Below the pieces are notes generated by a model. That model was not told the origin of the DNA, made no database searches, and was given only the letters and a program-made list of their open reading frames with translations. DNA of 64,000 nt from Haloarcula salina. Its GTDB lineage: Archaea > Halobacteriota > Halobacteria > Halobacteriales > Haloarculaceae. The DNA lies in contig NZ_WRXL01000001.1 of assembly GCF_010119195.1 (NCBI RefSeq), positions 682,001 through 746,000 of the forward strand. The letters are read 5' to 3'. This document shows positions 38,548 through 49,751 of this stretch, piece after piece (the stretch's first letter is position 1; each line of letters opens with the position of its first letter). The translations under genes were made by a program, and so were the position numbers.

Positions 38548-39408
38548 CTACTGCTCTCCCATCCGCTCACCCGCAACCCGACGGCCTTTCGTCGTCAGAT
38601 TCACCTCGGTCCGTTCGCGGAGGACGCTGATGACGTCGAGTTCGATGAGGCGGTCGAAGATCTCCTCGGTCTTCTCGACGGAGATGCCGACGAAGTTGGG
38701 GATGTCGAACGGCGAGACGCCGGAGTGGAGCGCCATGATGACCCGTTTCTCCGTCGAGCTCAGGTCGAGGTCGGCGCGGTTCTGCTCGGCGCTGTCTTCG
38801 AGCATCGTCCGCAGGACCGTCGCGTGGAACTCCTCGCCGGCGAGGTGGGTCTCGACGCTGATGTCGGCCTCGCTGTGTTCGACCTGGATGACCGTCCGCT
38901 CCTCGCCGGTGACCTGCTTCTCCTCGACTTCGAGGTCGCCGATGTCGGCCCGCTCGATGTCGACGGCCTGGCCGTCGGCCAGGGCGAGGCGGAGCGCCTC
39001 GTCGGTCACTTTCAGTCGGCCCTTCGTCCACTCGGCCGACTGGACGACGCCGCCTTTCAGCGCGGGGTGTTGCACGAGGACGATCGCGCCGTCGAGACTC
39101 GCCCGGTAGAAGTCGGTCACGAAGGTCTCGTGGTCCGAGGCCGACACCAGGACGACGTCGTCGCCGATGTGGAGCGCGACGTACTCGGAGACGCCGGCGC
39201 TCTGCTGGTTCACGTCGAACCGGTCGGCGATGCGGTCGATATCAGCGAGTGAAATCTGTCGCTTGCTGTCGCCGAGCAGCGCGAGCCGTTCGGTCGTGAG
39301 GACGATGCGGCAGTTCCGCCACTCGGCGTCGGTGAGGCGCTGTCCCTGCGAGACCGCCTGCAGGTACTGTCCCTTCGTATCGGCGATCTTCTTCTCGGTG
39401 TCGCTCAT
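38548..39408 (-). CDS. CheF-like taxis protein
   Basis: A 286-aa protein similar to CheF, the archaeal adaptor between the chemotaxis system and the archaellum. Marks are the N-terminal KIADTKGQYLQAVSQG and the RIVLTTERLAL strand in a beta-rich domain. The C-terminal STEKRVIMALHSGVSPFDIPNF segment and two-helix end have a winged-helix-like pattern. A second copy is at 48888 and neither has che or arl genes next to it. Family assignment from a consistent pattern over its full length; function in this position is inferred. Confidence 0.72.
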   Translation of the reverse strand: MSDTEKKIADTKGQYLQAVSQGQRLTDAEWRNCRIVLTTERLALLGDSKRQISLADIDRIADRFDVNQQSAGVSEYVALHIGDDVVLVSASDHETFVTDFYRASLDGAIVLVQHPALKGGVVQSAEWTKGRLKVTDEALRLALADGQAVDIERADIGDLEVEEKQVTGEERTVIQVEHSEADISVETHLAGEEFHATVLRTMLEDSAEQNRADLDLSSTEKRVIMALHSGVSPFDIPNFVGISVEKTEEIFDRLIELDVISVLRERTEVNLTTKGRRVAGERMGEQ

Positions 39409-39529
39409 GCCCTCACCGGCCTCCTGTGACTCCGTTGTCCGCAGGCTGGAATATAACTTCCGCCGCGAGTGTCGCTACCGATAACGGTGGCGCGGGTGCG
39501 GGCCCAAGTCGGGCTGGTTAGATGGAACG

Positions 39530-39537
39530 TTTTTAAA
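39530..39537 (+). promoter_or_regulatory. TATA-like box upstream of the first acs gene
   Basis: TTTTTAAA lies 23-30 bases before the ATG at 39560, matching a leaderless archaeal promoter. Confidence 0.5.
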
Positions 39538-39559: not shown

Positions 39560-41500
<1,941 letters not shown>

Positions 41501-41684
41501 CTGTTTCGTAGATTCGAATATTTTCGAAATAGCAATGACAGGAGAAGCTCCGCACTACCGACGGGTCGGCAAGCCGGTATCTCACACTCGGTACTGAGCC
41601 GGGCTTCCGGTGCACCTCCCGTCCGATACCAGGTGCAACCGTATCCGAACACTTATTTCGATATTCTTTGTATTTCCGAAATAT

Positions 41685-43376
41685 ATGGACGAACCGGCGG
41701 ACGAACTCGGCGAGTGCGGGTACGAGCGCCTCCGACGCGCAGCCGAGACGCACCGCTCGGACCTCGTACTCCGGCTCGGCGCGGAGGTCGGACTCCGACC
41801 GACTGAGATGACGGCCCTGCGGCCGGCCGATATCACCGAGTTCGAGGGTCACTACCTGCTCTCCGTCCGTGGGGGTGACGAGGTCACGCGCGATGCGTAC
41901 CTCCCCGAATCCGTCGAGCACGACGTGCGCAAGTACGCGAACGCGGCCGGAATCGCCGACGGCGAGCCGCTGTTCTCCGTCTCCGCGCGCCGCCTCCAGA
42001 TGCTCGTCAGGGAAGTCGCCGAGCGCGCGGCCGAGTCCGCGCCGCGGCTTGCGGACGTGTCCTCCCGCGACCTCCGGTGGCGATTCGCCGCGAGCCTACT
42101 CGACGACGGCGTTCCGCCGGACGTGGTCTGTGCGCTCGGCGGCTGGGACCGGCTGGACCGCCTCGTGCCCCTCCTCGACGATCCCGACCGCGAGGGGATC
42201 GTGGCGGCGCTCGGCGACGCCGACGGGGGCGAGGTCTCGGCGCGCCTCCAGCAGGTCATCGCCGCCACGTCGACCGTCGGCGAGGGGCTCACGGACGCCG
42301 CGACGGCGTCGGAAATCGCCGCGACGGTCTGCGACCGCCTCGCGGCGACCGAGGGCTACCGGTTCGCGTGGCTGGCCGAGCGGACCGGCGACGGCCTCAC
42401 GCCCGACGCGGCGACGGACGTGGCCGACGCCGCCGTCGAGCGACACCTCGACGATCACGCGGAGACGCTCAGCGCCGCGCTCGACGCCCGCGAAGTGCAC
42501 GTGCGCGAGGCGGCCGGCGGGCCCGTGGCGTTCGTCCCGATCGTCAGAGAGGGCGCGACCGCGGGCGTCGTCGGCGTCGGCCCGACCGACGACGTGACCG
42601 ACGCCGAGCGGGACCTGCTCTCGGCGCTCGGCACGCAGGTGGGCCACGCCCTCGCCGCGGTCGAGCGCAAGCGCCTCCTGCTGGCCGACACCGTCACCGA
42701 ACTGGAGTTCGACTGTGGCGACGCGCGAGCGTTCACCGTCGGGCTGTCGCGCGCGCTCGACTGCGCGCTCGAGTTGTCGGGCATCGTCCCCGTCGGCGGG
42801 CAGTCGCTGCTGTACTACCTCGTGGTCGACGGCGCGTCGGCGGACGCAGTGCTGTCCTACGCGGCCGACGACGACGCCGTCGCCGACGCGCGGCTCATCG
42901 AGGACTACGGGGACGGCGCGCTGCTCGAAGCGGTCGTGACCGACGCCCCCGCGCTGAAACTGGTCCGGAGCGGCGGGCGCGTCAGCGACCTGACCGCTGC
43001 GAACGGAACGGCGACGATCGCCGTCGAGATGCCCGGTGAGGTCGACATCAGACCGCTCGTCGACGCGGTCGTCGACGCCTACCCGGAGACCTCGCTGACG
43101 GCGAAACGCCAGACCGAACGCCCGGTCGAGACGGACGCCGGCTTCCGCGAGCGCCTGACCGACCGGCTCTCGGACCGCCAGGAGACGGTCCTCCGGGCGG
43201 CCTACCACAGCGGCTACTTCGAGTGGCCGCGCGGGACGACCGCGGAGGAGCTGGCCGACTCGCTCGACGTGTCCTCGCCGACGCTCCACAACCACCTCAG
43301 AAAGGCCCAGCAGAAGGTCCTGACGGCGTTCTTCGACGACAACCCGGCGGATCCCAGACACCCCCTCGGCGACTGA
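41685..43376 (+). CDS. Bat-type HTH regulator with recombinase-like N-terminal domain
   Basis: The ATG at 41685 (MDEPADELGECGYER) gives 563 aa. Residues about 1-170 resemble a tyrosine recombinase catalytic core (LGAEVGLRPTEMTALRPADI, SSRDLRWRFAASLLDDG, LGGWDRLDR). The active-site His of the LRHTF block reads Arg, the GH position reads GW and no tyrosine nucleophile follows. A GAF-like region (about 180-330) and a bat-like domain come next. The C-terminus has the HTH_10 domain LSDRQETVLRAAYHSGYFEW, SSPTLHNHLRKAQQKVL. It probably senses a ligand and controls acs genes on both sides. The longer N-terminal frame from 41610 looks unlikely. Confidence 0.85.
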   Translation: MDEPADELGECGYERLRRAAETHRSDLVLRLGAEVGLRPTEMTALRPADITEFEGHYLLSVRGGDEVTRDAYLPESVEHDVRKYANAAGIADGEPLFSVSARRLQMLVREVAERAAESAPRLADVSSRDLRWRFAASLLDDGVPPDVVCALGGWDRLDRLVPLLDDPDREGIVAALGDADGGEVSARLQQVIAATSTVGEGLTDAATASEIAATVCDRLAATEGYRFAWLAERTGDGLTPDAATDVADAAVERHLDDHAETLSAALDAREVHVREAAGGPVAFVPIVREGATAGVVGVGPTDDVTDAERDLLSALGTQVGHALAAVERKRLLLADTVTELEFDCGDARAFTVGLSRALDCALELSGIVPVGGQSLLYYLVVDGASADAVLSYAADDDAVADARLIEDYGDGALLEAVVTDAPALKLVRSGGRVSDLTAANGTATIAVEMPGEVDIRPLVDAVVDAYPETSLTAKRQTERPVETDAGFRERLTDRLSDRQETVLRAAYHSGYFEWPRGTTAEELADSLDVSSPTLHNHLRKAQQKVLTAFFDDNPADPRHPLGD

Positions 43377-43411
43377 GTTCGTGACTGCCGTTACCATAGT
43401 TAGACCCCCAG

Positions 43412-43419
43412 TTTATATG
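43412..43419 (+). promoter_or_regulatory. TATA box upstream of the second acs gene
   Basis: TTTATATG lies 28-35 bases before the ATG at 43447. Confidence 0.5.
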
Positions 43420-43446: not shown

Positions 43447-45441
43447 ATGGCAGATGATGATGTACAACTGGAGGCGCGACTCGAGGAGCAGGAGGTATTC
43501 GAGCCGCCGGAGTCGTTCGTCGAACAGGCGAACGTCAGCGACGAGTCGATCTACGAGGAGTTCGAGGAGAACTGGCCGGAGTGCTGGGAGGCGGCCGCCG
43601 ACCTCCTCGACTGGGACGAGGACTACGACCAGGTGCTGGACGATTCGAACCCGCCGTTCTACAAGTGGTTCACCGACGGGTCGCTGAACGCGTCGGCCAA
43701 CTGCCTGGACCGCCACCTCGACGAGCGGGGTGACGAGGCCGCCATCGAGTGGGTCGGGGAACCGGTCGACGAAGACAACGTCACGTACACCTACGAGGAG
43801 CTCCACCGCGAGGTCAACGAGTTCGCGGCCGGACTGCGGGAGATGGGCGTCGGCGAGGACGACGTGGTCACGATGTACATGCCGATGATCCCGCAGCTGC
43901 CCATCGCCATGCTGGCCTGCGCCCGCATCGGCGCGCCCCACTCCGTGGTGTTCGCCGGGTTCTCCGCGGACGCGCTCGCGACGCGGATGAACTCCGCGGA
44001 CTCCGAGTACCTCGTCACCTGCGACGGCTACTACCGGCGCGGCGACCCGCTCGACCACCTCGACAAAGCCAACGAGGGCCTCGACGGGGTCGAGCACGAG
44101 GTCGAGCGCGCCATCGTCGCCGAGCGCCTGATGGACGGCGACGGCTTCGGCCACGACTACGCCGACAACCAGGTCGCCTTCGACGACGTGGTCGCGGACA
44201 ACGAGGGCGCGACGGTCGACCCGGTCGAGCGCGACGCCGAGGACATGCTGTTCCTGATGTACACGTCGGGAACGACCGGCCAGCCGAAAGGGGTCAAGCA
44301 CACCACCGGCGGCTACCTCGCCTGGTCGGCCTGGACCTCACAGGCGGTGCTGGACATCAAGCCCGAGGACACGTACTTCTGCTCGGCGGACATCGGCTGG
44401 ATCACCGGCCACTCCTACATCGTCTACGGCCCGCTCGCGCTCGGGACCACGACGATGATGTACGAGGGGACGCCGGACTACCCGGACAACGACCGCCTGT
44501 GGGAGATCGTCGAAGACTACGAGGCAGACCAGTTGTACACCGCGCCGACGGCCATCCGGGCGTTCATGAAGTGGGGCAAGGAGTACCCCGAGCGTCACGA
44601 CCTCTCCAGCCTGCGCCTGCTGGGCACGGTCGGGGAGCCGATCAACCCCCGCGCCTGGAAGTGGTACTACAAGCACATCGGCAACGAGGAGTGCCCGGTG
44701 GTCGACACGTGGTGGCAGACCGAGACGGGCGGCATGATGATCACGACGCTCCCGGGCGTCAAGGACATGAAGCCCGGGTCCGCCGGGCCGCCGCTGCCGG
44801 CCAACGACGTCCGCATCGTCGACACAGAAGGCGAGCAAGTCCAGCCCGGCCGCGCCGGCTATCTGACGGTCAACAAGCCCTGGCCCGGGATGCTCCGGAC
44901 GCTGTACAAGAACGACGAGCGCTTCATCGAGGAGTACTGGGCGGAGTACTCCGACACCGACAGCGACGACCCCGACGACTGGGTGTACTTCCCCGAAGAC
45001 GGCGCGAAGATCGACGAGGACGGCTACATCACCGTCCTCGGTCGCGTCGACGACGTGATCAACGTCTCCGGCCACCGCCTCGGGACGATGGAGATCGAGA
45101 GCGCCATCGTCGGCGTCGAGGGCGTCGCCGAAGCCGCGGTCGTCGGCGGCGACCACGAACTCAAGGGCGAGGCGGTGTACGCCTACGTCATCACTGAGGA
45201 CGGCTACGAGGAGAACGACGACCTCCGACAGCAGATCATCGACGGCGTCGAGGACGCGATCGGGCCCATCGCCCGCCCCGAGCAGGTCATCTTCACGCCG
45301 GAACTGCCGAAGACCCGCTCCGGGAAGATCATGCGTCGGCTACTCGAAGACATCGCCAACGGCGAGGAACTCGGTGACACGAGCACGCTCCGCAACCCCG
45401 ATGTCGTGAGCGACATCGAACGAAAGGTCCAGGGAGACTGA
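43447..45441 (+). CDS. acs: Acetyl-CoA synthetase (AMP-forming), copy 2
   Basis: A 664-aa ACS similar to the copy at 39560, with YTSGTTGQPKGVKHTTGGY, DIGWITGHSYIVYGPL, TWWQTETGGMM and TRSGKIMRRLLE. An acidic extra loop near residues 495-520 (EEYWAEYSDTDSDDPDDW) distinguishes it from copy 1. The 58-base gap to the DUF4212 gene suggests coupled expression with the symporter. One copy might act on propionate or serve under different growth conditions. Confidence 0.95.
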   Translation: MADDDVQLEARLEEQEVFEPPESFVEQANVSDESIYEEFEENWPECWEAAADLLDWDEDYDQVLDDSNPPFYKWFTDGSLNASANCLDRHLDERGDEAAIEWVGEPVDEDNVTYTYEELHREVNEFAAGLREMGVGEDDVVTMYMPMIPQLPIAMLACARIGAPHSVVFAGFSADALATRMNSADSEYLVTCDGYYRRGDPLDHLDKANEGLDGVEHEVERAIVAERLMDGDGFGHDYADNQVAFDDVVADNEGATVDPVERDAEDMLFLMYTSGTTGQPKGVKHTTGGYLAWSAWTSQAVLDIKPEDTYFCSADIGWITGHSYIVYGPLALGTTTMMYEGTPDYPDNDRLWEIVEDYEADQLYTAPTAIRAFMKWGKEYPERHDLSSLRLLGTVGEPINPRAWKWYYKHIGNEECPVVDTWWQTETGGMMITTLPGVKDMKPGSAGPPLPANDVRIVDTEGEQVQPGRAGYLTVNKPWPGMLRTLYKNDERFIEEYWAEYSDTDSDDPDDWVYFPEDGAKIDEDGYITVLGRVDDVINVSGHRLGTMEIESAIVGVEGVAEAAVVGGDHELKGEAVYAYVITEDGYEENDDLRQQIIDGVEDAIGPIARPEQVIFTPELPKTRSGKIMRRLLEDIANGEELGDTSTLRNPDVVSDIERKVQGD

Positions 45442-45492: not shown

Positions 45493-45954
45493 ATGACAGA
45501 TACCGATATTCACGACGGCAGTAGCGACCGCTCTCTCGCTCCCGACGGCGGGACGACGACCGACGCGGCGCGAGAGCACCAGAACACGAACTACCTCGAA
45601 GAGGAGGTGAACCTCCTGAGCCCCAGCACGGCGTACATGCGGGACCACCTGCGCATCGTCTGGTCCGGCTTCATCGTCTGGGCGCTCATCGTCTTTGGAC
45701 CGGTGACGTTGACGGTCATCGCCCCCGAGACGATGACGTCGATAACGGTGCCACCGGGCTTCCCGCTGCACTACTTCACGGTGGCCTTCGGGGGCCCGAC
45801 CGGGGCGCTGGTACTCGCCTTCTGGTACGCTCGCAAGCGCGATTCGCTCGACGAGAAGTACGGCATCGACCACAGCGTCGTCGAAACCGACGCCGAGTCC
45901 GACGGCGGTGAGCGGGGCGACGCCGCCGCGACCGACGGGGGTGTCGAGCAGTGA
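45493..45954 (+). CDS. DUF4212 small subunit of sodium/solute symporter
   Basis: A 153-aa protein with two hydrophobic helices (about 55-78 and 93-115). DYLEEEVNLL-like YLEEEVNLLSPSTAYMRDHLRIV and FGGPTGALVLAFWYARKRDSLDEKYGID are diagnostic of DUF4212, which accompanies VC_2705-type symporters. The long disordered, acidic N-terminus is typical of haloarchaea. Its stop overlaps the GTG start of the large subunit by 4 bases. Expected to form an acetate uptake system with it. Confidence 0.9.
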   Translation: MTDTDIHDGSSDRSLAPDGGTTTDAAREHQNTNYLEEEVNLLSPSTAYMRDHLRIVWSGFIVWALIVFGPVTLTVIAPETMTSITVPPGFPLHYFTVAFGGPTGALVLAFWYARKRDSLDEKYGIDHSVVETDAESDGGERGDAAATDGGVEQ

Positions 45955-47633
45955 CGGTCCCGCTGCAGGCCGAGGCGCTCGACATCTCCTTCAAGCTCGT
46001 CCCGGCGATCATCGTCTTCCTGATGATGGCCTCGTTCCTCGTCATCGGCTACGTGTTCAAGGTGGCCGACACCGAGGGCATGTGGGTCGCCGGCCGCGGC
46101 ATCGGTAACATCGAGAACGGGATGGCGATCGGCGCGAACTGGATGTCGGCCGCCTCGTATCTCGGGCTGGCCGGGCTGGTCGCCCTCTCCGGGTTCTACG
46201 GCCTGGCGTTCATCGTCGGCTGGACGACCGGCTACTTCGTGTTGCTCATCTTCCTCGCCGCGCAGATGCGCCGGTTCGGGAAGTACACCGCGCCCGACTT
46301 CGTCGGCGACCGGTTCAATTCCCCGACCGCTCGCGCGCTCGGGGCGTTCACCACGCTGCTCATCGCGTACGTCTACTCCGTCGGGCAGGCCCGCGGCATG
46401 GGGCTGGTCGGCCAGTACGTCTTCGGGCTGGAGATCATCCCGATGATCGTCGTGATGATGACCATCACCGTCGGCTACCTCGCGCTCTCGGGCATGCTGG
46501 GCGCGACGAAGAACATGGCCGTCCAGTACGTCATCCTCATCGTCGCGTTCCTCGCGGGCGTCTACGTCGTCGGCTGGTCGCAGGGTTACTCGACGATCCT
46601 GCCCCAGATCGAGTACGGCGCGCTCTTTGGCGAACTCAGCCGCCAGTTCTCGGCTCCGTTCCGGACGGGGTCCTACTACATCTGGGTCGCGACGGCGTTC
46701 TCGCTCATCGTCGGGACCTGCGGCCTCCCGCACGTGCTGGTGCGGTTCTACACGGTCGAGAACGAGCGGACCGCGCGCTGGTCCTGCGTCTGGGGCCTGT
46801 TCTTCATCATGCTGCTGTACTGGGCCGCGCCCGCGATGGCGGCCTTCGGCGTCGACCTCTTCGCGGCGGTGAACGACATCACCCCCGACGCGGTCTACAA
46901 CGGTCAGCAGGCCATGTCCGGTGCCGAGGGCGACGTGATCGTCGTTCTCGCGGCGCAGTTCGCGGACCTCCCGCGCTGGTTCGTCGGCCTCGTCGCCGCC
47001 GGCGCGATGGCCGCGGCGATCGCGACCACCGCGGGGCTGTTCATCACGGCCTCCTCGGCGGTCGCCCACGACATCTACACGGAGCTCGTCAACCCCGACG
47101 CGACCCAGCGCCAGCAGGTGCTCATCGGTCGGGCCACCATCATCGCCATCGGCGCGCTGGTGACCGTGACCGCGTTCAACCCGCCGGCACTCATCGGCGA
47201 ACTGGTCGCCTACGCGTTCTCGCTGGCCGGCACCGTGCTGTTCCCGATGTTCTTCCTCGGCCTCTGGTGGGAGAACACCAACCGACAGGGCGCACTCGCC
47301 GGGATGACGGTCGGGCTGTTGCTGTGGATCGGCTCCGTCGTCAACAGCGTCCTGCCGAGCTACATCGGCGCGCTCGGTGCGGCGGCGGGCGAGAGCGGCG
47401 CGCTCGTTCCCATCTACGCCCAGTACGTCCCGCCGATCGGCGCGGCGCTCATCGGCACGCCGCTGGTGTTCCTCGTGACCATCGCCGTGTCGCTCGTCAC
47501 GCCCGAACCCCCGATGGAGACCAAGCGGATGGTCAGGCAGTGTCACAGCCCCGAACCGATGGGCCAGCAACAGACCGCCGAAGACATCGTGAGCGATAGC
47601 GGCGGCAGCGGCGGTACCCCCGCAGACGACTAA
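45951..47633 (+). CDS. Sodium:solute symporter (acetate-type, VC_2705 group)
   Basis: A GTG start overlapping the small subunit gives 560 aa with about 13 helices. The N-terminal WVAGRGIGNIENGMAIGANWMSAASYLGLAGL is the SSF substrate/sodium-binding region. GLPHVLVRFYTV and NPPALIGELVAYAFSLAGTV are further family segments. Downstream of acs and with its DUF4212 partner, acetate or a related monocarboxylate is the likely substrate. The C-terminal 60 residues are an acidic tail. The Usp gene starts 4 bases after its stop. Confidence 0.93.
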   Translation: MTVPLQAEALDISFKLVPAIIVFLMMASFLVIGYVFKVADTEGMWVAGRGIGNIENGMAIGANWMSAASYLGLAGLVALSGFYGLAFIVGWTTGYFVLLIFLAAQMRRFGKYTAPDFVGDRFNSPTARALGAFTTLLIAYVYSVGQARGMGLVGQYVFGLEIIPMIVVMMTITVGYLALSGMLGATKNMAVQYVILIVAFLAGVYVVGWSQGYSTILPQIEYGALFGELSRQFSAPFRTGSYYIWVATAFSLIVGTCGLPHVLVRFYTVENERTARWSCVWGLFFIMLLYWAAPAMAAFGVDLFAAVNDITPDAVYNGQQAMSGAEGDVIVVLAAQFADLPRWFVGLVAAGAMAAAIATTAGLFITASSAVAHDIYTELVNPDATQRQQVLIGRATIIAIGALVTVTAFNPPALIGELVAYAFSLAGTVLFPMFFLGLWWENTNRQGALAGMTVGLLLWIGSVVNSVLPSYIGALGAAAGESGALVPIYAQYVPPIGAALIGTPLVFLVTIAVSLVTPEPPMETKRMVRQCHSPEPMGQQQTAEDIVSDSGGSGGTPADD

Positions 47634-47637
47634 AGAC

Positions 47638-48111
47638 ATGTACGATCACATCCTCGTTCCGACTGACGGTAGCGACACCGCGGAGAACGCGGTCGACCAG
47701 GCGATCGACATCGCCTCGAAGTACGGGTCGACGGTCCACGCGCTGTACGTGGTCGACGTCGACGCCACTAGCTACTCGCTGGGCACGGAGCAGGTCGACC
47801 GCATCCGCCAGGGCCACCTCGACGAGATGACCGAGGTGAAAGAAGACGCAGACGAGGCCACCGGCTACGTCGCCGACCGCGGCGCGGAACACGGCGTCGA
47901 GGTGGTCGAACACGTCACCGCCGGCGAGCCCGCGCGGGCCATCCGGAAGTTCGTCGACGACAACGACATCGACCTCGTCGTGATGGGGTCCCACGGCCGC
48001 TCGGGCCTCAAGCGCGTCATCCTCGGCAGCGTGACCGAGAAGGTGCTGCGCCGGACCCGCCTGCCCGTCCTCGTCGTCGACGTCCACGGCGACACCGACG
48101 TGGAGGAGTGA
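47638..48111 (+). CDS. Universal stress protein (UspA family)
   Basis: A 157-aa single-domain Usp. It starts MYDHILVPTDGSDTAENAV, and VVMGSHGRSGLKRVILGSVTEKVLRRTRLPVLVV holds the ATP-binding GxxGRSG motif with the usual GSVTEKV. Four bases after the symporter gene, it is likely co-expressed. Usp linked to SSS transporters recurs in haloarchaea, but its role is unknown. Confidence 0.93.
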   Translation: MYDHILVPTDGSDTAENAVDQAIDIASKYGSTVHALYVVDVDATSYSLGTEQVDRIRQGHLDEMTEVKEDADEATGYVADRGAEHGVEVVEHVTAGEPARAIRKFVDDNDIDLVVMGSHGRSGLKRVILGSVTEKVLRRTRLPVLVVDVHGDTDVEE

Positions 48112-48887: not shown

Positions 48888-49751
48888 TTACTTCTCGCTC
48901 ATCGCCTCGCTCGCCATGTTCCGCCCCTGGGCGTTCAGCGCGACCTCTGTCCGCACGCGAACCTCGTCGACCGCGCCGATGTCGAGCAGTCGCTGGTAGA
49001 TCTCCTCGACCTCGTCGGGGGTCGTCCCGACGAAGTCGGACATCTCGAACGGAGACACGCCCGAGTACAGCGCCATCAGTACCTGACTCTCCATCTCGGA
49101 GAGTTCGTAGTCGTCCTCGCGGCCCTCGACGACCCGGGTGAACAGCGTCTCCAGCGCGCGGGTGTGGTGGTCCATGCCCGAGAGATGCGTCTCGACGCTG
49201 CGGTCCTGGTCGTCGGTGTGCTCGACCTCGATGACCGTCCGCTGCTGGCCCATCACGGTGCTGGTCCCGGTCTCGATGGTCCCCACGTCCTCAACCTCGA
49301 AGGAGAGCCCGCCGCCGCCGGGGAACTGGAGGCGGACGACGCCGTCGTCGAGCTGGAAGCGCGCCTTGCTCCACGCCGCGTCGTCCTGGACGACCCCGCC
49401 GACGACGGCCTGCTCGCGCGCGAGGATGACCTGTCCCTGCAGGGCCGCGCGGACGTACTCCGTCTCGAAGTCGTCGACGTTCGGGGCGTCGACGAGCAGG
49501 ACGTTGTCGCCCACCTCCAGCGCGGTCGCGCCGCTCGCGGCGTCCGGGACCAGTTCCGCTGCGTCGTCAGCGAGCCTGATCTTCGAGTGCGCGATGGGCT
49601 GTTTCGACCCGTTCGTCGCCAGGACGAGGCGCTTGTTGGTGACGATGAGCCGGCACGAGCGCCACTGCGGGTCGGCCACGTCCTCGCCGTTCCGGACGAC
49701 GTACTGGAAGTCCCCCGACGTGTCGACCAGCTTGCGTTCGTCACCACTCAT
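48888..49751 (-). CDS. CheF-like taxis protein, second copy
   Basis: A 287-aa paralogue of the protein at 38548. ERKLVDTSGDFQYVVRNGED, RLIVTNKRLVLA and MESQVLMALYSGVSPFEMSDFVGTTPDEVEEIYQRLLDIG align with the first copy throughout, including the C-terminal helical domain. A TATA-like CTTATATATC precedes the start. CheF links CheY signals to the archaellum switch in Halobacterium; two copies far from che genes suggest diverged roles. Family assignment good, exact role inferred. Confidence 0.72.
   Translation of the reverse strand: MSGDERKLVDTSGDFQYVVRNGEDVADPQWRSCRLIVTNKRLVLATNGSKQPIAHSKIRLADDAAELVPDAASGATALEVGDNVLLVDAPNVDDFETEYVRAALQGQVILAREQAVVGGVVQDDAAWSKARFQLDDGVVRLQFPGGGGLSFEVEDVGTIETGTSTVMGQQRTVIEVEHTDDQDRSVETHLSGMDHHTRALETLFTRVVEGREDDYELSEMESQVLMALYSGVSPFEMSDFVGTTPDEVEEIYQRLLDIGAVDEVRVRTEVALNAQGRNMASEAMSEK

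Follow-up and report, generated by a model that had tools for sequence, protein, structure and literature searches.

A recombinase-like domain and lox-like repeats in a likely regulator of haloarchaeal acetate genes

The gene described here lies in a window of 64,000 nucleotides (the whole stretch of DNA that was analysed) from Haloarcula salina. Its neighbors are two genes for acetyl-CoA synthetase, acs1 and acs2, and the latter is followed by genes for a DUF4212 small protein, a symporter, and a universal stress protein (Usp) (Table 1). Matches to ACAS_N and AMP-binding identify the acs genes on both sides of the regulator, in agreement with the initial annotation, which had placed it between two of them. 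Papers are cited by PMC number for their accessible portions. In its make-up, the cluster resembles the Haloferax volcanii operon acs7-HVO_A0155-ssf-uspA28, which is transcribed on acetate, not on glucose or casamino acids (PMC7746861); the accessible portion of that paper names no regulator for the operon. CheF-arch (PF04283) genes flank the acetate cluster at 38548-39408 and 48888-49751, both on the minus strand.

Table 1 Features of the acetate cluster, with positions counted in the window
Feature	Position	Strand	Remarks
Activator-like element of acs1	39517..39534	+	GTTAGA-N7-TTTTT
acs1	39560..41500	+	AMP-forming acetyl-CoA synthetase
Inverted repeat 1	41504..41529	.	TTTCG-N16-CGAAA, just after the acs1 stop codon
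Inverted repeat 2	41656..41681	.	TTTCG-N16-CGAAA, beside a TATA-like run, immediately ahead of the regulator start
Regulator gene	41685..43376	+	563 aa: recombinase-like domain + GAF + BAT + HTH_10
Degenerate tyrosine-recombinase catalytic domain (predicted)	41706..42209	+	Residues ~8-175; from fold search, Cre residue mapping, conservation
RRLQM	41988..42002	+	Residues 102-106; corresponds to Cre helix J (R259, E262, G263)
GAF domain	42300..42656	+	Residues ~206-324; presumed signal input
BAT domain	42687..43148	+	Residues 335-488; E 1.1e-44
HTH_10 DNA-binding domain	43167..43322	+	Residues 495-546; E 2.3e-21
Activator-like element of acs2	43399..43416	+	GTTAGA-N7-TTTAT
acs2	43447..45441	+	AMP-forming acetyl-CoA synthetase
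DUF4212 small protein	45493..45954	+	
Sodium:solute symporter	45951..47633	+	Likely acetate carrier
Universal stress protein	47638..48111	+	

The regulator frame ends with the stop codon at 43376 and can start at ATG 41685, which was the choice of the initial annotation, or at GTG 41610. If the in-frame GTG is the start, inverted repeat 2 would fall within the regulator gene. BAT, HTH_10, GAF_2, and GAF_3 all scored above their cut-offs in a domain profile search, which bears out the earlier description of a regulator with GAF and a bat-type HTH. At the N-terminus, residues 14-157 match Phage_integrase (E 1.7e-5) with 25.1 bits, slightly below the cut-off of 27.1, and NF040815, the model of archaeal XerA, recognizes residues 13-151 (E 1.3e-9) with 38 bits, the cut-off for a true XerA being far higher at 220. 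Phage_integrase, BAT, and HTH_10 were each matched in all 13 members of alignment A1, and GAF_2 in 11 of them (E <= 0.001). At two other loci, the regulator frame stops early, after about 180 aa in L197 (G319) and about 220 aa in L131 (G189); in L197, the sequence takes on a foreign appearance.

Residues 1-186 were predicted with a pLDDT of 86.8 and a pTM of 0.82. The model of the full-length protein is poor over HTH_10 (pLDDT under 50). A structure search with the N-terminal model gave two Xer structures, including XerA (VIA), as the closest solved folds (Z 17.5), followed by integrases, XerH, lambda Int, and Cre (Z about 14). The phage regulators SroF, YopR, and MrpR match as well (Z 12.3-14.8). 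In this model, the N-terminal domain has the tyrosine-recombinase catalytic fold, which begins near residue 8; an N-terminal core-binding domain is absent from the model. Residues 1-170 had been annotated as a recombinase core, with structure prediction proposed as the check, and the prediction returned the fold of XerA, Cre, lambda Int, and XerH rather than a different one.

A profile alignment to P1 Cre equates R38 with R173, E41 with E176, R128 with H289, R131 with R292, W154 with W315, and L163 with Y324. As the hhalign probability was 49% (E 2.7e-5), the fold and the motifs serve as further grounds for these equivalences. Residues were counted over 133 family members, among them the window protein and the members at L131 and L132. 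The catalytic Lys (Cre K201 in the beta2-beta3 hairpin) was found in none of the 133 members, the window protein included. The His of HxxR is kept in 4 of 133 and replaced with Arg in 74, as in the window protein, where R128 occupies the position for which the loss of the H of HxLR had been noted before. Both catalytic arginines are present in the window protein, and in the family R38 occurs in 115/133 and R131 in 133/133.

The W154 position holds Trp in 117 members, Tyr in 11, and Phe in 5. A change from GH to GW had been taken as damage, which does not hold: Cre itself has Trp at this position, and a Trp substituting for the second His is therefore no sign of death. The reported lack of a Tyr nucleophile is correct for the window protein, which has Leu163, but does not extend to the family, as Tyr is found in 77/133 members. 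The steady losses in the family are those of Lys and His, not that of Tyr. Judged from the missing residues, the window protein is probably catalytically dead.

The nearest relatives found for the regulator N-terminus are 20 single-domain integrases from other haloarchaeal genomes (L244-L263). Arg, Arg, His, and Trp as well as the hairpin Lys are each present in 20/20, and Tyr stands at the aligned position in 15 and one residue later in the remaining 5. Because these relatives keep Lys and His, the loss of catalytic residues goes with the fusion. Their open frames comprise 195-251 aa (182-225 aa from the chosen starts), which leaves scant room for a core-binding domain beside the catalytic residues. 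On family-profile scores, the cell's own XerA was rejected as the nearest source: a single-domain integrase of 240 aa from the same genome scored 79.5 bits, and XerA and Cre about 15 each. The genome has a separate XerA at G000:C7:62124-62972 (253 bits, above the cut-off).

R102 and R103 are invariant in the family (133/133), and Q105 and M106 nearly so (129/133 and 132/133). They lie in the helix that reads the major groove, in which R102 corresponds to Cre R259 and Q105 to Cre E262. Cre R259 contacts the G opposite the C of loxP TTCG through a bidentate bond, and E262 guards selectivity (PMC7438526). The complete R-R-x-Q-M is found in 71/73 fusions versus 0/20 single-domain relatives, in which R102 occurs in 10, R103 in 2, Q105 in 3, and M106 in none. 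In the fusion family, the recognition helix became fixed as catalysis decayed.

The genomic context was followed across the class. We searched 391 Halobacteria genomes with residues 1-205 and obtained matches in 308 at E <= 1e-5, with 83 genomes giving no match; as some matches are single-domain integrases, 308 is an upper bound for the fusion. Loci were examined from 60 of the best-scoring matches, about one or two per genus, and from 13 others, giving 72 distinct loci. An acs gene lies directly upstream on the same strand in 71/72 and downstream within 5 kb in 68/72, where it mostly precedes genes for DUF4212, symporter, and Usp. Upstream of the regulator in L132, no acs gene was found in 3.7 kb of sequence on a short contig, and in L228, one of 60 held-out loci, none was found in its 3 kb.

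The motif TTCG-N15/16-CGAA was first read from the gap before the regulator and then counted over spacers from 4 to 30. The counts cover 71 loci from 45 genera, L001-L013 being placed in genera by their names; L074 (which shares its genome with L012), L131 (whose frame is broken), and L132 (in which no acs was found) were left out. The acs1-regulator gaps of these loci (12.3 kb) contain 123 sites, 43 with spacer 15 and 80 with spacer 16, and every other spacer gave at most 9. In coding DNA, 267 kb contain 36 sites with these two spacers, and 2 were counted in the 34.6 kb made up of the regulator-acs2 gaps plus the 300 bp before acs1. Because the repeat is so rare at acs promoters, the recombinase domain may not act directly on acs. 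At least one repeat is present in 69/71 loci and exactly two in 60/71, with none in L112 and L122; these counts are not independent, as the genera are related. In held-out loci from other species of those genera, the repeat was found in 58/59 with acs upstream, and overall three of 130 loci lack an exact repeat. For the two repeats of spacer 16 in the window, 0.08 were expected in 64 kb, and 1/100 shuffles had two.

The loxP site, read from AF234172, is TTCG-N16-CGAA, with arm and spacing common to the haloarchaeal repeat, in which spacer 15 occurs besides the loxP-like 16. The single-domain integrases do not share the repeat, as within 160 nt upstream of them spacer 15 was seen in 1/20 and spacer 16 in 0/20. 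L245 carries a perfect inverted repeat, TTCGTAGTTATC-C-GATAACTACGAA (TTCG-N17-CGAA), about 120 bp upstream of its single-domain integrase.

A promoter flanked by two similar sites is also what an active recombinase or topoisomerase would use, cutting at the paired repeats and, for example, excising the promoter between them. Such an enzyme would agree with the arginines R38 and R131, Trp154, and Tyr being mostly kept and with the His being replaced by Arg, not by a neutral residue. We regard this as highly improbable, since the hairpin Lys is lost throughout the family, Leu stands at the Tyr position here, the core-binding domain is absent, and the paired sites enclosing the promoter have been kept across the class.

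Elsewhere in the Haloarcula genome, TTTCG-N15/16-CGAAA occurs at five further places besides the two in the window. Four of these were examined, and one lies clearly between genes of interest, namely a TctA-type transporter gene and a Usp gene (TTTCG-N16-CGAAA, L152 1501-1526, G000:C10:85532-85557), which makes it a possible further target. The form TTTCG-N15/16-CGAAR gave 35 rows in the whole genome, a symmetric site being counted twice, versus 7 for the backward control. The repeat was rejected as a general BAT/HTH_10 site, as the symmetric genome sites are not at the other listed BAT/HTH_10 matches.

In 111 loci with exactly two copies, the distance between their centers is 95-98 bp in 55 and 105-110 bp in 30, with 4 in between. 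The 152 bp of the window was found in none of the other loci of this set. In a phasing test on the median per genus (42 genera), 0/5000 jittered sets reached the observed value. With unique distances, p was 0.014, with merged classes 0.32, and the best period was about 11.6, not 10.5. Phasing was therefore dropped as proof of looping on account of the merged classes, and it remains a hint.

Before the acs genes stands a different element. At acs2, it lies 9 bp before a TATA-like box. Bat, the bacterio-opsin activator, acts through the bop UAS, which adjoins the TATA box. TAG-N9-TTA was found in the regulator-acs2 gap of 58/67 loci and then of 52/57 further loci, in which other spacings from 4 to 15 gave at most 8; the regulator coding DNA (117.6 kb) contains none. 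A slightly wider TTAG pattern occurs in 117/124 acs2 promoters versus 1/130 regulator promoters, at a shuffled rate of 0.03. Where acs2 is missing (L079, L089, and L103), the TTAG element precedes whatever gene follows. The element is present at acs1 in 11/11 loci of the window's genus and in 5/118 elsewhere. The initial suggestion that both acs genes are regulated thus fits this genus, but elsewhere acs1 would rarely be included.

RTTAGA-N7-TTTWT has three occurrences in the Haloarcula genome, two of them at the acs genes, and the backward control has none. As this pattern was shaped on both acs sites, their recovery is no test, and only the scarcity of other matches is one; no clear gene follows the third match. 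An initial TTAG pattern that was looser was discarded: it gave 12 matches versus 14 for the control in this genome, and its first letter excluded both acs sites.

Regulator-less genomes served as a further control. We took 17 of the 83 genomes without a match, of which 16 have a close acs gene. The TTAG element stands at 1/16 of these genes (L268, probably by chance) and the inverted repeat at 0/16. In L264 and L265 (G003 and G012; one genus, regulator-less), a TTAG run precedes acs with a spacing of 11 instead of 9, and this run may be a relic or belong to another factor. That other factors bind the repeats and the TTAG element in general, the adjacency to acs reflecting operon structure only, is conceivable insofar as both elements were deduced from DNA. 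It finds little credence with us, because both elements are nearly absent from the acs genes of regulator-less genomes and because the repeat accompanies the regulator even where acs1 was not found (once each in L132 and L228).

We propose, with a probability of about 0.7, a one-component acetate regulator in which the recombinase domain would bind the repeats for autoregulation and the HTH would activate acs. Its N-terminus would be a relative of haloarchaeal single-domain tyrosine integrases, with catalysis lost and the recognition helix kept and fixed. Two recombinase-like domains would occupy TTCG-N15/16-CGAA in the manner of two recombinase subunits on a core site; the arm, the spacing, and the frozen helix are the reasons for which the repeat fits this domain. 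Occupation of both copies would probably cover the regulator's own promoter, possibly by bridging of the copies. As repeat 2 adjoins the TATA-like run before the start codon, a protein bound there should close the promoter. GAF and BAT would respond to a signal that reflects acetate or the energy state, a metabolite bound by GAF being our guess. The C-terminal Bat-type HTH would bind the TTAG element upstream of the TATA-like box and activate the acs2-transporter operon and, in the window's genus, acs1 as well. The element fits this domain because Bat has GAF and HTH and a UAS 5' of bop. What the analysis shows is the predicted fold, the missing catalytic residues, the position beside acs, and two conserved DNA elements linked to the regulator; the pairing of domains with elements, the direction of control, and the signal are inferred from these. 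Conversion of the recombinase core to DNA binding, one of the two roles first suspected for it, is the best-supported reading in view of the kept fold, the lost Lys and His, the frozen helix, the lox-like repeats, and the adjacency to acs.

The roles could be distributed otherwise. HTH_10 might be what binds the repeats, with or without the TTAG element as well, leaving the recombinase fold to serve only oligomerization or signal transfer. The predicted DNA-binding part of Bat-type regulators is the C-terminal HTH (PMC1447603), dimeric HTH proteins likewise favor inverted repeats, and the old active-site pocket drifts, with W154 replaced by Tyr in 8/73 and Phe in 2/73 members. We consider this distribution unlikely, as R102, R103, and the phosphate-binding R131 are the most constant parts and are needless for oligomerization alone. 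Moreover, the repeat matches loxP in arm and spacing, and none of the other BAT/HTH_10 matches listed has a symmetric TTTCG-N15/16-CGAAA genome site within 4 kb. Within the proposed one-component regulator, a frozen synapse is a tentative extension, in which the dead domains would bridge both lox-like repeats as a tetramer and loop out the promoter without cutting. The GAF/BAT part would then set whether the loop forms.

If correct, this reading supplies a likely function for recombinases that are listed as a family by domains alone in a review (PMC8371274, accessible portion) and names a likely regulator for haloarchaeal acetate genes. It would also be a clear class-wide case, with catalytically complete relatives, of a DNA-cutting enzyme turned transcription factor. 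Both elements are short and named, so each step is directly testable in Haloferax or Haloarcula. The frozen synapse, if true, would mean that an archaeal class uses a former recombination complex as its metabolic switch.

Our literature search found nothing in print on the function, context, or sites of the regulator, supplements and most subscription journals being outside its coverage. What looks new is the link between four things: the acetate setting throughout the class, the decay of catalysis compared with catalytically complete relatives, the paired lox-like repeats, and the further element before acs. Already known, in the portions of the papers accessible, are the domain architecture (fam30-04) and dead recombinases as repressors (MrpR). 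Among archaeal tyrosine recombinases, fam30-04 combines Phage_integrase, BAT, and HTH_10, some members with GAF_2 (Badel et al. 2021, PMC8371274), and judged on this architecture, it is very likely the same family as the regulator. It is classed there as a recombinase family, and the accessible portion of the review gives no catalytic decay, context, sites, or regulatory role.

XerA is the closest solved fold to the N-terminus. Cre has the fold, the GGW motif, the base-reading Arg, and TTCG-N16-CGAA in its site in common with the regulator, but also a full active site and a core-binding domain, and the regulator has neither. Between the haloarchaeal repeat and loxP, the arm core and the spacing alone are common. 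Bat of Halobacterium has GAF and a C-terminal HTH, its predicted DNA-binding part (PMC1447603), and the UAS is located 5' of bop (PMC1447603, PMC3184054). Whereas Bat has PAS, no recombinase domain, and acts on bop genes, according to the portions of these papers available, the regulator has a recombinase domain.

SroF of phage phi3T is, like the regulator, a recombinase fold by structural match, its description being taken from PDB titles alone. MrpR (YopR) of prophage SPbeta has a tyrosine-recombinase fold, lost its recombinase function, and is a DNA-binding repressor (PMC10516654). MrpR keeps the core-binding domain, Lys, and Tyr and lost the crucial Arg and His, whereas the regulator lost Lys and His (PMC10516654 for MrpR). 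Identity of the regulator to MrpR and SroF is 8-11%. MrpR acts in phage lysogeny on a 15 bp motif, and no sensor or second HTH is described for it in the accessible portion of that paper. By its predicted model and its residues, the regulator resembles the MrpR type in being a recombinase fold without a complete active site.
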